A DNA stretch of 64,000 nucleotides. Source: Spirochaetota bacterium (GTDB lineage: Bacteria; Spirochaetota; Spirochaetia; Treponematales; UBA12059). The notes beneath the pieces are model-generated. The model was not told the DNA's origin. It was given only the letters and a program-made list of their open reading frames with translations, and made no database searches. Below are positions 35,951 to 40,518 of the stretch, one piece after another. The DNA lies in NCBI GenBank assembly GCA_018262985.1, contig JADFDI010000003.1, positions 285,577 to 349,576 on the forward strand, given 5' to 3'. The position numbers and the translations under genes were made by a program. Numbering within the stretch: position 1 is the first letter of the stretch; each line of letters starts with the position of its first letter.

Positions 35951-36892
35951 ATGCACAGGATCCTCGTCATACTGAACCCGACGGCGGGCAAGGGCGCCGC
36001 GAGCGAGCGGATCGAGCCCTGGCTCGCCGGCATGCGGACGGCGGGCTTGCATTGGGACCTGGCGGTGACGACGGGACCGGGGCACGCGCGCGAGCTCGCG
36101 GCGGCCGCCCGGGCCGAGCGCCGCGAGGTGGTGGTGGCGGCGGGAGGGGACGGGACGGCCAACGAGGTGATCAACGGCCTGATGGAAAGCGGGAGCGGCG
36201 CCGACGACCGGCCCGCCCTCGGCCTCCTGCCCATCGGCCGCGGCAACGACTTCGCCCACGGAGCCCTGGCGCCCCACGATCCGCGGGATTTCGCGGAGCT
36301 CCTGGTCCGGCGGCGCTTCAGCCCCCTCGACGTCGGCATCGTGGAGGACATGGCGAATCCCGCCTCTCGCCGCCATTTCGGCAACGGGATCGGCATCGGC
36401 TTCGACACCCTGGTGGGTTTCACCGCCGCGCGCGCGACCATGCTGCACGGGGCCCTGGCCTACTTCTGGGGCGCGCTGGTGCGGATGGCGGCCTTCCCGA
36501 AAGCGCCGACCCTGGCCCTCGCCTGGGACTCGGGGTCGATGGAGCTCACTTCGATACAGGTGTCCATCATGAACGGCCGGCGCATGGGCGGCTCGTTCCG
36601 CATGGCGCCGGACGCTGATCCGGGGGACGGGCTCCTGGATCTGTGCGCCGTGCGGGTGCGGGGCCGGCTCCACCTGTTCCGGATGTTCCTGCGCTTCATC
36701 GAGGGGACTCAAGGTGAGGATCCGGGAACCGTGGTCGCGCGCTCCGCGCGCTTCTCGGTGAAGGCGCTCGAGGGGAGCATGCCCGTGCACGCCGACGGCG
36801 AGACGGTGGCGACCGCCGGGAAGGAACTCCGCGTGGAGCTCCTGCCGGGCGCGCTGCGCTTCGTCGGGCTTCCCGGCGCTTCGGGACGGTGA
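35951..36892 (+). CDS. Diacylglycerol/lipid kinase family protein
   Basis: Soluble lipid kinase of 313 aa (DgkB/YegS type). The N-terminus ILVILNPTAGKGAASERI and the nucleotide-binding VVAAGGDGTANEVINGLM (about residues 63-80) are diagnostic, followed by GLLPIGRGNDFAHG. The C-terminal LDLCAVRVRGRLHLFRMFLRF is typical. The product would be phosphatidic acid or another phospholipid; the exact lipid is not predictable. Monocistronic, ending before the convergent small RNA terminator. Confidence 0.92.
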   Translation: MHRILVILNPTAGKGAASERIEPWLAGMRTAGLHWDLAVTTGPGHARELAAAARAERREVVVAAGGDGTANEVINGLMESGSGADDRPALGLLPIGRGNDFAHGALAPHDPRDFAELLVRRRFSPLDVGIVEDMANPASRRHFGNGIGIGFDTLVGFTAARATMLHGALAYFWGALVRMAAFPKAPTLALAWDSGSMELTSIQVSIMNGRRMGGSFRMAPDADPGDGLLDLCAVRVRGRLHLFRMFLRFIEGTQGEDPGTVVARSARFSVKALEGSMPVHADGETVATAGKELRVELLPGALRFVGLPGASGR

Positions 36893-36927: not shown

Positions 36928-36972
36928 AAAAAAATTGAGACCGCCGGGAAAGGAGGCGAACCCGGCGGTCTC
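36928..36972 (-). terminator. Perfect Rho-independent terminator of the candidate sRNA
   Basis: A 12-bp perfect stem (GAGACCGCCGGG/CCCGGCGGTCTC; 36961-36972 and 36937-36948) with a 12-nt loop, followed on the minus strand by AATTTTTTT. The plus-strand side has no T-tract, so it serves leftward transcription. The loop (36949-36960) contains CGCCTCCTTT. Confidence 0.92.
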
Positions 36973-37061
36973 GACCCGACGCTTGCTCAGGGCGCGGGCA
37001 AAGCGGAAAAGGAGGCGTCGTGCTTCAAGTCCGCCGCGACGCGGTCGGTCTTTCAGTCGAC
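36928..37061 (-). ncRNA. Candidate small RNA with two anti-Shine-Dalgarno-like motifs
   Basis: Predicted transcript of about 134 nt bounded by a near-perfect promoter (37068-37096) and a perfect terminator. No ORF with a ribosome site was seen on this strand. It carries two identical copies of CGCCUCCUUU (37008-37017 and 36949-36958), the second displayed in the terminator loop. CCUCCUUU equals the 3' end of 16S rRNA, so the RNA could pair with ribosome-binding sites of mRNAs. It does not look like tRNA, tmRNA, SRP RNA or 6S RNA. It is divergent from dnaE. Function is inference. Confidence 0.7.
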
Positions 37062-37067
37062 AAGATG

Positions 37068-37096
37068 ATAATATCCAGTATCTCCAAAGATGTCAA
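37068..37096 (-). promoter_or_regulatory. Consensus sigma-70 promoter of the candidate sRNA
   Basis: On the minus strand TTGACA (37091-37096), exactly 17 bp, and TATTAT (37068-37073). The predicted start is near 37061. It lies in the most AT-rich stretch of the window (about 37050-37165). Confidence 0.88.
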
Positions 37097-37150: not shown

Positions 37151-37172
37151 ATACTATACAAATGTATGGTAT
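37151..37172 (+). promoter_or_regulatory. 22-bp palindromic operator over the dnaE start
   Basis: ATACTATACA, AA, TGTATGGTAT: ten-base arms with a single mismatched pair. It covers the probable -10 region (GATACT, 37150-37155, with TTGCGG 18 bp upstream) and the ATG at 37162. A bound repressor here would block transcription. I do not recognise it as a known LexA or other regulator site. Confidence 0.6.
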
Positions 37173-40100
37173 GCGATCCGACGCGACGCTCCCCCTCCTT
37201 TTCGCGCGCTCCCGCTTTTCGCTGATGGCCGGCGCGGCCGAGCCGGCCGCCCTCTGCGCGCGGGCGGCCGCGGGCGGCTACGGCGCCGTCGCGCTGGCGG
37301 ACCTGGACAACCTCTACGCCCTGCCGGAGTTCGCGGACGCGGCCGCCGACTCGGGCGTCAAGCCGCTCGCCGCCGCCTGGCTCGGGCCCGCGGGCCGGAG
37401 GACCGTCGCCGCCCTCGCGCTCGACCGGCGCGGTTATTCCCGGCTCAACCGCCTGCTCACCCGCGCGCTCGCCGTCGATACGGCGCTCAGGCGCTTCCGC
37501 CTGCCGCCGGAGGCCTTCGAGCCGGGCGGTGACGAGTCCGGGGAGGGGCGCGGGGCGGGCGTCGTCGCCCGGGCGCGGGATGCGGCCCCGCGCCCGGAGC
37601 CGCGGCCGGGCGTCGCCGTCCGGCCTTCGGCCGCGGCCGCGACGGGCTGGGATCCGCTCGCCGACCTGGCAGCGGAAGGCTGGGAAGGACTCGCGCTGGC
37701 CTCGGGAGAGCCGCGCGTCCTGGCGGCGCTCGCCCGGGCGGCCTCGGAGGGCGCCGGCGGACCGGGGCCGGGGCGGCTGCCCTTCGTCCTGCTGGAGGCC
37801 GGGCGTCCGCAGGCGGCCCTGGCGCGGCTCGGCGCGGAGCTCGGCCTGCCGACGCTCGCCGGCTCCGACGCGCGCTTCTTCGAGCCGGGCGACCGCGAGC
37901 GCGCCGAGCTGCTCGAGGCCATCGAGGCGCGGCAAACCCTCGCCGCCCTGCGCGCCGCGACGGGCCGGGCGGCGCCGGGGCCCGAGTGCGACTTCGTCGG
38001 CGCGGCCGAGCTGGCCGGACGGCTTTCGGCCTTTCCGGAAGCCCTCGACAACGCCCGCGCCCTGGCGGAGGCGGCCGCGCCCGCGTCCTCCTTCTTCTCG
38101 GAGACGCCGGTGTTCCCCGCCTGGCGCGGCCTTCCGGAGGCGGAGGCCCGCCAGGCCCTGGCGACGGCCTGCCGCGAGGGCGTGCCCCGGCGCTACGGAG
38201 CGGAGGGCGCCTCTCGCTCCGACCTGGCCGCGCGGCTCGAGCGCGAGCTGCGCATCATCGGCGACAAGGGCTTCGCGGGCTACTTCCTCGTGGTGCGCGA
38301 CATAGTCTCGCGCTGCCCGCGCACCTGCGGACGCGGCAGCGCCGCCTCGAGCCTCGTGTCGTACCTGCTCGGCATCACCCACGTCGACCCGCTCGAGCAG
38401 GAGCTCTTCTTCGAACGCTTCCTCAACGAGGGGCGCACGGACCCGCCGGACATCGACGTGGACTTCCCCTGGGACGAGCGGCCCGCCCTGATACGCTCGG
38501 TGCTGGACGGGAACCCCGGGCGCTCGGCCCTGGTGGCGGACCACTGCGGCTTCTCGGGGCGCAGCGCCATCCGCGAACCGGCGCTGGCCCTCGGCATCGC
38601 GACGGACGAGATCGCGCGCCTCGTGCGCGAGGCCCGGCTCACGGGGCCCGCCGCGCTTCCCGAAGGACTCGAGCGCCTGGCCGCACTCGCGCGAGGGACG
38701 CCCCGCTATATCGGCACGCATCCCGGCGGCATGATCATCACGCCCGGCCCCATCGAGGACTACGTGCACGTGCAGGAGTCGCCCCTCGGCTATCCGGTCA
38801 TCGCGTGGGAAAAGGACGGCGCGGAGCGCGCGGGCCTGGTCAAGATCGACCTGCTCGGGAACCGCTCGCTCGCCGTGCTGCGCGACGGCATCGAGCTCTC
38901 GAACCGGGCCTGGGAGGCCGAGCGCCGGCTCCCGGGAAGGGACGCGGAAGGGGCGGCTCCGGGCGCGGACCCGGCCGGGGCGGGAAGGGAAGGGGACGGA
39001 ACGGACGGGCGCGCGGCGGAAGCTGCCGCTTCGGAAGGCACCCGCTACCCGCTCTCGTGGGATCGTTTCGACCCGGTGGACGAGGCGTCCGCGCGCGCCC
39101 TGGTCGAACGGGGCGACACGGTGGGCGTCTTCTATATCGAGAGCCCGGCCACGCGCCGCCTGCTCCGGAAGATGGGGACGGCCGACTACCGCCACCTGGT
39201 CGTGGCCAGCTCGATCATCCGGCCGGCGGCCAACCGCTTCGTGGACGAGTACGTCGCGCGGCTTCACGGCAAGAAGTGGCGCCGCCTGCCCGCGGCCGTC
39301 GAGGAGGCGCTCGCGGAGACGCACGGCGTCATGGTCTACCAGGAGGACGTCTCGCGCGTGGCCATGGCCGCCGCGGGCTTCGAAGCGGTCGAGGCGGACG
39401 CGCTCCGCAAGGCTCTGACCAAGAAGCGCAAGGCCCCGTCCCTGCTGCGCTTCCGGGAACGCTTCATGGAGGGCTGCGCCGCTCGCGGCGTCCGGGAGCG
39501 CGACGCCCGCGAGCTCTGGGAGATGATGGCCAGCTTCGACGGCTATTCGTTCTGCAAGGCCCACTCGGCGTCCTACGCCCTCGTGTCGTACCGGCTGGCC
39601 TGGCTCAAGGCGAACCGTCCGGCGGAGTTCATCGCGTCGGTCATCAACAACGGCGGCGGCTTCTACGGCACCTCGGTCTACGCGGGCGAGGCCCGGCGGA
39701 TGGGACTCGCGCTGCTGCCGCCCGACGCGAACCGGAGCGAGGTCCGGTGGACGGTCGAGCGCCCCGGCCCCGGGGGGAAGAAGGCGGCGCTCCGCATCGG
39801 CTTCGCCCAGATCCGCTCGGCGCCGCGCGAGTTCGCCGAGACCGTCGTCGCCTCGCGCTCGGCGCGCGGACCCTTCCGCGGCGCCATCGACTTCTTCGAG
39901 CGGACCCGGCCCGACCGCGAGACCGCGCGCGCCTGGATCCTTTCCGGCTGCCTCGACGCCCTGGGCCTCGAGCCGGGCGGGTCGAAGGCGGCGCGCGCCC
40001 ACCTGCTCTGGGCCTGGCACCGCTGGCGCGCGCTCGGCGAGGGCGCGGGCGAGGCGCTCTTCCCCTCGTGGGAGGCGCCCGCGGGGCTCGCGGAGCACGG

Positions 40101-40518
40101 CCGGCGCCTCGCCCTGGCTTCCGAGGCGGAGACCCTCGGCTTCGTGGCCTCGAGCCCGCCGGCCGAGCTCTTCGCCGCGCGCGCCCGCGCGGCGGTAGCG
40201 CGGCTCGCCCTGCCGCCGCTCGTCGATTCGCGCGCGCTCGAAGGTTCGCTCGGCCGGCGGGTGTCGATAGCCGGCGTGGCGGCGGCGCGCAAGGAGGTGA
40301 TCACCAAGAAGCGCGACGCCATGTGCTTCGCCACCTTCGAGGACGCCTTCGGCCTTTTCGACGCGGTCCTTTTCCCTCAAGCGTGGACTCGCCTCGTGCC
40401 GATGCTGGAAGAGCACGACGCCGTCCTCGTGGTCGGCGAGCCGCGCTCCGAACTCGGCGCCGTCGCGGTGCACGTGGACGAAGCGTACGCGCTGGACCGG
40501 CCCCGCCGCGGCGCCTGA
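37162..40518 (+). CDS. DNA polymerase III alpha-like (DnaE-family) polymerase
   Basis: C-family DNA polymerase of 1118 aa. The catalytic pair is in PPDIDVDF (Asp430 and Asp432), with the third Asp likely in VKIDLLGNRSL. Fingers and ligase-like motifs are present (CGRGSAASSLVSYLLGITHV, PRYIGTHPGGMII, FCKAHSASYALVSYRLAWLK), and a C-terminal OB fold (RVSIAGVAAARKEVITKKRD). The N-terminal PHP domain is degenerate: the usual His-rich HxHxxYS and TDHxN motifs read LFARSRFSLM and LADLDNLYAL. Together with the operator this fits a DnaE2/ImuC-type error-prone enzyme, but a replicative role cannot be excluded. ATG 37162 would be leaderless; ATG 37171 is possible. Confidence 0.88.
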   Translation: MYGMRSDATLPLLFARSRFSLMAGAAEPAALCARAAAGGYGAVALADLDNLYALPEFADAAADSGVKPLAAAWLGPAGRRTVAALALDRRGYSRLNRLLTRALAVDTALRRFRLPPEAFEPGGDESGEGRGAGVVARARDAAPRPEPRPGVAVRPSAAAATGWDPLADLAAEGWEGLALASGEPRVLAALARAASEGAGGPGPGRLPFVLLEAGRPQAALARLGAELGLPTLAGSDARFFEPGDRERAELLEAIEARQTLAALRAATGRAAPGPECDFVGAAELAGRLSAFPEALDNARALAEAAAPASSFFSETPVFPAWRGLPEAEARQALATACREGVPRRYGAEGASRSDLAARLERELRIIGDKGFAGYFLVVRDIVSRCPRTCGRGSAASSLVSYLLGITHVDPLEQELFFERFLNEGRTDPPDIDVDFPWDERPALIRSVLDGNPGRSALVADHCGFSGRSAIREPALALGIATDEIARLVREARLTGPAALPEGLERLAALARGTPRYIGTHPGGMIITPGPIEDYVHVQESPLGYPVIAWEKDGAERAGLVKIDLLGNRSLAVLRDGIELSNRAWEAERRLPGRDAEGAAPGADPAGAGREGDGTDGRAAEAAASEGTRYPLSWDRFDPVDEASARALVERGDTVGVFYIESPATRRLLRKMGTADYRHLVVASSIIRPAANRFVDEYVARLHGKKWRRLPAAVEEALAETHGVMVYQEDVSRVAMAAAGFEAVEADALRKALTKKRKAPSLLRFRERFMEGCAARGVRERDARELWEMMASFDGYSFCKAHSASYALVSYRLAWLKANRPAEFIASVINNGGGFYGTSVYAGEARRMGLALLPPDANRSEVRWTVERPGPGGKKAALRIGFAQIRSAPREFAETVVASRSARGPFRGAIDFFERTRPDRETARAWILSGCLDALGLEPGGSKAARAHLLWAWHRWRALGEGAGEALFPSWEAPAGLAEHGRRLALASEAETLGFVASSPPAELFAARARAAVARLALPPLVDSRALEGSLGRRVSIAGVAAARKEVITKKRDAMCFATFEDAFGLFDAVLFPQAWTRLVPMLEEHDAVLVVGEPRSELGAVAVHVDEAYALDRPRRGA

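Follow-up and report, generated by a model that had tools for sequence, protein, structure and literature searches.

Within the window, i.e., the entire 64,000-nt stretch of Spirochaetota DNA analyzed here, a predicted small RNA (sRNA) gene lies on the minus strand between a lipid kinase gene and a dnaE gene. The convergent neighbor (35951–36892, plus strand) encodes a YegS/BmrU-type lipid kinase (NCBIfam TIGR00147 above cut-off), and the divergent neighbor (37162–40518, plus strand) encodes a second DNA polymerase III alpha subunit of the error-prone, DnaE2-like type (Pfam PF07733 and PF17657), for which the NCBIfam PRK05673 and PRK05672 matches fall below their cut-offs. Another DnaE of the same genome is located at G000:C16:162605. 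The start of the second dnaE is spanned by a near-perfect palindrome, TACTATACAAATGTATGGTA (37152–37171), and TACTATACA-NN-TGTATAGTA or close variants occur at the starts of homologous dnaE genes in L062, L130, L131, L132, L133, and L142. Judged from sequence alone, it resembles a LexA-type operator; no further copy with up to four mismatches was found in the 1.97 Mb of genome sequence searched, which consists of stretches covering 57% of the genome.

A sequence check confirmed the minus-strand layout of the sRNA gene to the base. The −35 box TTGACA (37091–37096), a 17-nt spacer, and the −10 box TATTAT (37068–37073), identical in two congeners, precede the predicted transcript of ~134 nt (36928–37061), whose 5′ end was inferred at about 7 nt past the −10 box. 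The promoter scored 11/12 in a promoter scan, which returned two promoter-like sites in 6 kb versus 0.1 (sd 0.4) expected from shuffles. On the same strand, the RNA carries CGCCUCCUUU twice, in a single-stranded stretch (motif 1, 37008–37017) and in the 12-nt loop of an intrinsic terminator (motif 2, 36949–36958); the plus-strand reading of both is AAAGGAGGCG. The terminator (36937–36972) is built of a perfect 12-bp stem, GAGACCGCCGGG/CCCGGCGGTCTC (36972–36961/36948–36937), enclosing the loop at 36949–36960, and is followed by AA and a U7 tract (36928–36934). It is missing from the list of the terminator scan because that scan accepts only loops of up to 8 nt. The promoter, the ~134-nt span, the 12-bp stem, the U7 tract, and both motif positions had been proposed in a first-pass annotation, and all of them held. 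Its statement that no gene lies on this strand held insofar as we saw no conserved ORF. A conserved plus-strand ORF using GGAGG as its ribosome site, which would have refuted the proposal, was not found: the candidate ORF, starting with GTG at 37020 just past one GGAGG, is not conserved, its GTG being GAG in both congeners.

RNA folding gave an energy of −57.2 kcal/mol (z = −2.6). Both CCUCC copies of the window RNA are predicted to be open, with unpaired probabilities of 0.88 for motif 1 and 0.97 for motif 2 in the terminator loop, the RNA-wide mean being 0.45; in many relatives, motif 1 is predicted to be merely moderately open. The 16S rRNA gene of the source assembly lacks its 3′ end, being cut by the contig end, and the 16S rRNA of relatives was used. 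Three relatives, one from the window’s family and two from Treponemataceae, have 16S rRNA ending in GGATCACCTCCTTT, and CCUCCUUU is therefore the anti-Shine-Dalgarno (anti-SD) sequence. The earlier claim that the motif matches the anti-SD end of 16S rRNA holds on this basis, i.e., on the 3′ ends of relatives.

At the dnaE locus, two congeners retain the RNA with 95–98% identity and the promoter with 92–95%, the flanking intergenic DNA being 58–84% identical; neither motif varies across the three genomes, nor does the stem. A dnaE-adjacent version was also detected in further genera of two families, namely in G007 and G011 of the window’s family and in G065 of family f4, which includes Rectinema. 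Beside the same dnaE, these genomes have a TTGACA or TTGACG box combined with the −10 sequence GATATTNT or GATATATT, and CCUCCUU inside the terminator loop. The upstream motif 1 is missing from G007, and in G065 it can be recognized only in the form CCCUCCC. Other dnaE loci, including the palindrome-bearing L130, L131, and L142, are without the RNA, which therefore does not belong obligatorily to the dnaE unit.

The same genome encodes a second copy of the sRNA at C21:73783, where CCUCCUU is followed by a 10-bp stem with UUUCCUCCUUUC in the loop. This copy precedes a conserved, zinc-ribbon-like ORF of 56 aa (FYCPCGGEVKMKT) and rpsT, a position that is syntenic across the window’s family and Rectinemataceae. 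The cultured relative Rectinema subterraneum is among the carriers of an rpsT-linked copy (L193). Both motifs are present in 18 of the 34 rpsT-linked copies, only the single-stranded upstream motif in 11, and only the loop motif in 5. The lack of copies with neither motif is not independent evidence, since the search pattern at this locus demanded a CCTCC somewhere, i.e., at least one motif. In part of the window’s family, the loop copy at the rpsT locus is gone, leaving ordinary loops, and GUUCCUCCUUUCCGUGGUGC is nearly constant; some same-family genomes (G009, G014) lack the RNA at this position. The 56-aa protein (FYCPCGGEVKMKT...ERRPSDF; L006:1707–1874, G000:C21) encoded upstream of rpsT is itself 73–98% identical across two families. 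Neither Pfam nor NCBIfam gave it a family match above cut-off; a CSL zinc finger matched only weakly.

Covariance models extended the family across Spirochaetota. Model R1, built from four sequences, was run over 294 genomes of the order and matched 75 of them at E ≤ 0.05, many with an independently recognized CCUCC-loop terminator. Model R2, built from 20 sequences with the window’s RNA left out, recovered the window RNA (match 36938–36971, 36.4 bits; E = 1.3e-5 in the window and 6.9e-4 in the genome) and found exactly two places in this genome. At E ≤ 0.01, 91 of the 393 genomes searched from Spirochaetota gave a match: 52 belong to the order, 30 to the rest of the class, and 9 to other classes. 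Some of these genomes had supplied training sequences. The control model R3, in which stems and tails were retained and only the motif and loop columns permuted, matched 17 genomes versus 91 for R2, 9 of the 17 at R2 loci; at E ≤ 1e-4, R2 found 31 places versus one for R3. As the permuted control loses most matches, the motif, and not the terminator alone, carries much of the signal. Covariation of the terminator stem is strong: both sides changed in 5 of 12 pairs, and the score of 0.284 versus 0.118 in shuffles was lost on sliding. In the 1.97 Mb of genome sequence, CCTCC occurs in the loop of 4 of 135 terminator hairpins, and only the two sRNA genes have CCTCC upstream as well. Homology of the most distant matches, those in other classes, is likely; convergence on the same motif is possible for short RNAs.

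The covariance search suggested in the first-pass annotation thus yielded a family across Spirochaetota, supported by a permuted-column control. The refutation named there, relatives lacking the motif or promoter, was not borne out: the relatives keep promoter, motifs, and terminator. The claim of a conserved duplication held in part, two motifs being typical and not universal, as in the 18/34 rpsT-linked copies. Several other approaches were rejected. Tandem covariance-model matches in G516, G426, and G542 were unconfirmed by a hairpin check and were left out of the confirmed count. The exact two-motif pattern CCTCCTTN{10,40}CCTCCTT was not above its reversed control across the order, and covariance models were used instead. 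RNAalifold on a mixed 33-sequence alignment predicted only four pairs, with motif 1 misaligned between lineages, and was replaced by lineage-consistent alignments.

Upstream of the terminators, a second type of promoter was recognized. Of 58 non-redundant CCUCC-loop terminators, 34 are preceded by GTAAC[CT] within the expected interval, versus 1.3% of background 100-mers, and the GTAAC-bearing copies have T at 23 nt past the G in 32 of 34 cases and at 24 nt in all 34. The 58 terminators come from fetched loci that are partly orthologous, and the 34 GTAAC cases do not equal 34 independent events. The fixed GTAAC–TT spacing suggests one sigma factor or activator, and the GTAAC-N17-RTT promoter is perhaps ECF-sigma-like, which is an inference. 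This promoter is common in the family and not universal: the window copy, with its TTGACA-17-TATTAT, lacks it, and the rpsT-linked paralogue has GTAAC.

Several further CCUCC-loop terminators were observed. Two in the same genome, at G000:C16 ~47.2 kb (L265) and in L382, are without the upstream motif, the one in L265 coming just after a gene’s stop codon; they may be 3′UTR-derived relatives or chance occurrences. In genomes of family f4, the family of Rectinema (L067, L097, L103, L114, L125), another CCUCC-loop terminator is associated with a conserved upstream GGCGAAACGG-like element and, in L114 and L125, precedes a Nif3-like gene; this could be a separate sRNA or a leader. In L044 and L100, from two families, CCUCC-loop terminators lie immediately upstream of a rex-like redox regulator gene. 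The complete genome G034 carries two near-identical copies of the RNA ~5 kb apart (L311), probably a recent duplication to judge by their sequences. At L064:1623–1710, the Rfam TD-2 RNA (RF03162) directly adjoins one of the new RNA’s copies and is encoded on the other strand.

To relate the RNA to known systems, Rfam was searched. In the window, a tRNA was the only match at gathering score, and the relatives added no more than LhrC matches below threshold and TD-2, which is a different RNA located next to one of the copies. LhrC (RF00616) had no match in the window, and the Treponemataceae copies reached 36.7–37.5 bits versus a gathering score of 110, which excludes LhrC membership. LhrC1-5 of Listeria are multicopy RNAs of ~110 nt whose CU-rich motifs are redundant and lie both in a single-stranded stretch and in the loop of the terminator; LhrC masks the SD site of lapB mRNA, and Hfq is dispensable (PMC4132741). 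The window RNA shares the redundant CU-rich motifs in a single strand and a terminator loop, but its motif is CCUCCUU, whereas LhrC has UCCC, three sites, and a requirement of LisRK for expression. In RsaE, FsrA, and other C-rich-loop sRNAs of Bacillota, initiation is blocked by binding of the C-rich motif to SD sites (PMC4132741); these differ in their UCCC-type motif, and the window RNA has no Rfam match.

A comparison with Gram-positive C-rich-loop sRNAs had been drawn at the outset and held in part, since an equally close analogue is offered by the alphaproteobacterial RNAs with CCUCCUCCC loops. These RNAs, termed anti-SD (PMC3927594) or cuckoo RNAs (PMC4504443, PMC10253847) and including SmelA075, SmelA099, and CcsR1-4, repeat an anti-SD motif in hairpin loops, have varying stems, and are stress-linked (PMC3927594, PMC4504443, PMC10253847). 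They carry CCUCCUCCC in the loop of each of 2–4 hairpins and are often found with DUF1127 genes, whereas the window RNA, from Spirochaetota and with its own promoter, has one CCUCCUU copy in a single strand and one in the terminator loop. Neither cuckoo feature is present: there is one CCUCCUU hairpin loop, the upstream motif being unpaired, and the immediate neighbors are DAGK_cat and DNA_pol3_alpha proteins. As the defining tests of both LhrC and cuckoo RNAs failed, we describe the RNA as working like them, by analogy, and file it as neither; homology is not shown, and the likeness is one of working principle. No match to Hfq (PF17209) was found in the 99.8% complete genome, the same search being positive in five control genomes. 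No earlier description was found in Rfam or in the literature searched, the coverage of which is incomplete. What is proposed as new is a widespread, previously undescribed Spirochaetota sRNA family; the working principle inferred for it is already known.

The likely explanation is an independently transcribed, intergenic, trans-acting sRNA that acts by anti-SD blocking and belongs to a Spirochaetota-wide family. The gene architecture, conservation, synteny, covariation, distribution, and identity of the motif with the anti-SD sequence are shown; motif accessibility remains a model prediction. One or two open CCUCCUU motifs would pair with AAGGAGG-type SD sites of several mRNAs, blocking ribosome binding and repressing translation, steps that, like transcription itself, are inferred without transcript or target data. 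The two motifs may serve as redundant seeds, and the RNA would probably act without Hfq. The two members in this genome, dnaE-adjacent and rpsT-linked, would be controlled differently, by a sigma-70-type promoter here versus GTAAC-N17-RTT, perhaps ECF-sigma-like; redundancy, Hfq independence, and different control are again inferences. In an RNAduplex target ranking over 1.97 Mb, chance pairings rich in G+C and uncertain starts prevailed and no convincing target came out, and in an SD survey based on crude gene calls, GGAGG before starts was just slightly above other G-rich words. Further points count against this explanation: an anti-SD motif by itself offers, in principle, no specificity; motif 1 is just moderately open in many relatives; some family members have one motif missing; and G009 and G014, of the same family, are without the RNA at the rpsT locus. 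Overall, the initial SD-masking interpretation is supported, with transcription and targets unproven.

Among the alternatives, the best surviving one, still unlikely, is that the RNA is real and its motifs imitate the 3′ end of 16S rRNA: they would capture a ribosome-assembly factor or another protein that normally recognizes GAUCACCUCC, and would not silence chosen mRNAs. The motif is indeed the anti-SD core of the relatives’ 16S rRNA, and Rectinemataceae copies read CACCUCCUUU, a longer 16S match. However, the match stops short of GAUCA in other lineages (UUCCUCC, CGCCUCC, AACCUCC), and pairing sRNAs such as LhrC (PMC4132741) are laid out in this way, with the motif duplicated in a loop and a single strand.

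It is very unlikely that the element is merely a strong terminator of neighboring genes, with a C-rich loop arisen by chance or drift and no separate sRNA. The two other CCTCC-loop terminators of the genome that lack the upstream motif, one of them just past a stop codon, would fit this view. Against it stand the RNA’s own promoter and its orientation, convergent to the lipid kinase gene and divergent from dnaE; the conserved upstream body, second motif, paralogue, and distant relatives of the same layout; and the loss of most matches when just the motif and loop columns are permuted. Likewise very unlikely is a cis-acting regulator of dnaE or the lipid kinase gene, either antisense or coupled to SOS-like dnaE control. 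The fixed place beside dnaE in G000–G002, G007, G011, and G065 speaks for it, but the transcript overlaps neither the dnaE coding region nor the palindrome at its start, the palindrome-bearing loci L130, L131, and L142 lack the RNA, and family members elsewhere have unrelated neighbors. A sponge that uses its CCUCCUU motifs to capture sRNAs or mRNA fragments containing GGAGG would rely on the same chemistry, and sponges of C-rich sRNAs such as the RoxS sponge exist (PMC8216469), but this too is very unlikely, with no partner sRNA identified and SD sites expected to be far more abundant as partners.

A bolder version of the preferred trans-acting reading, which we consider worth stating while leaning slightly against it, is that this phylum-wide, ancient, Hfq-independent anti-SD sRNA family constitutes a global translational stress response, driven mostly by one ECF-like GTAAC-N17-RTT promoter, with the window copy as a sigma-70-driven paralogue. 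The family would then be comparable with enterobacterial sigma-E sRNAs or RpoH-dependent cuckoo-type RNAs. For spirochaetes of this order, the literature searched contains next to nothing on sRNA control, and the genome has no recognizable Hfq. A conserved RNA exposing the anti-SD sequence would open the way to direct tests, with seed motifs and promoters at hand and syntenic copies available in cultured species. It would also give much of the phylum a first global regulator of the sRNA type and add another, apparently independent, example of the LhrC/cuckoo design.
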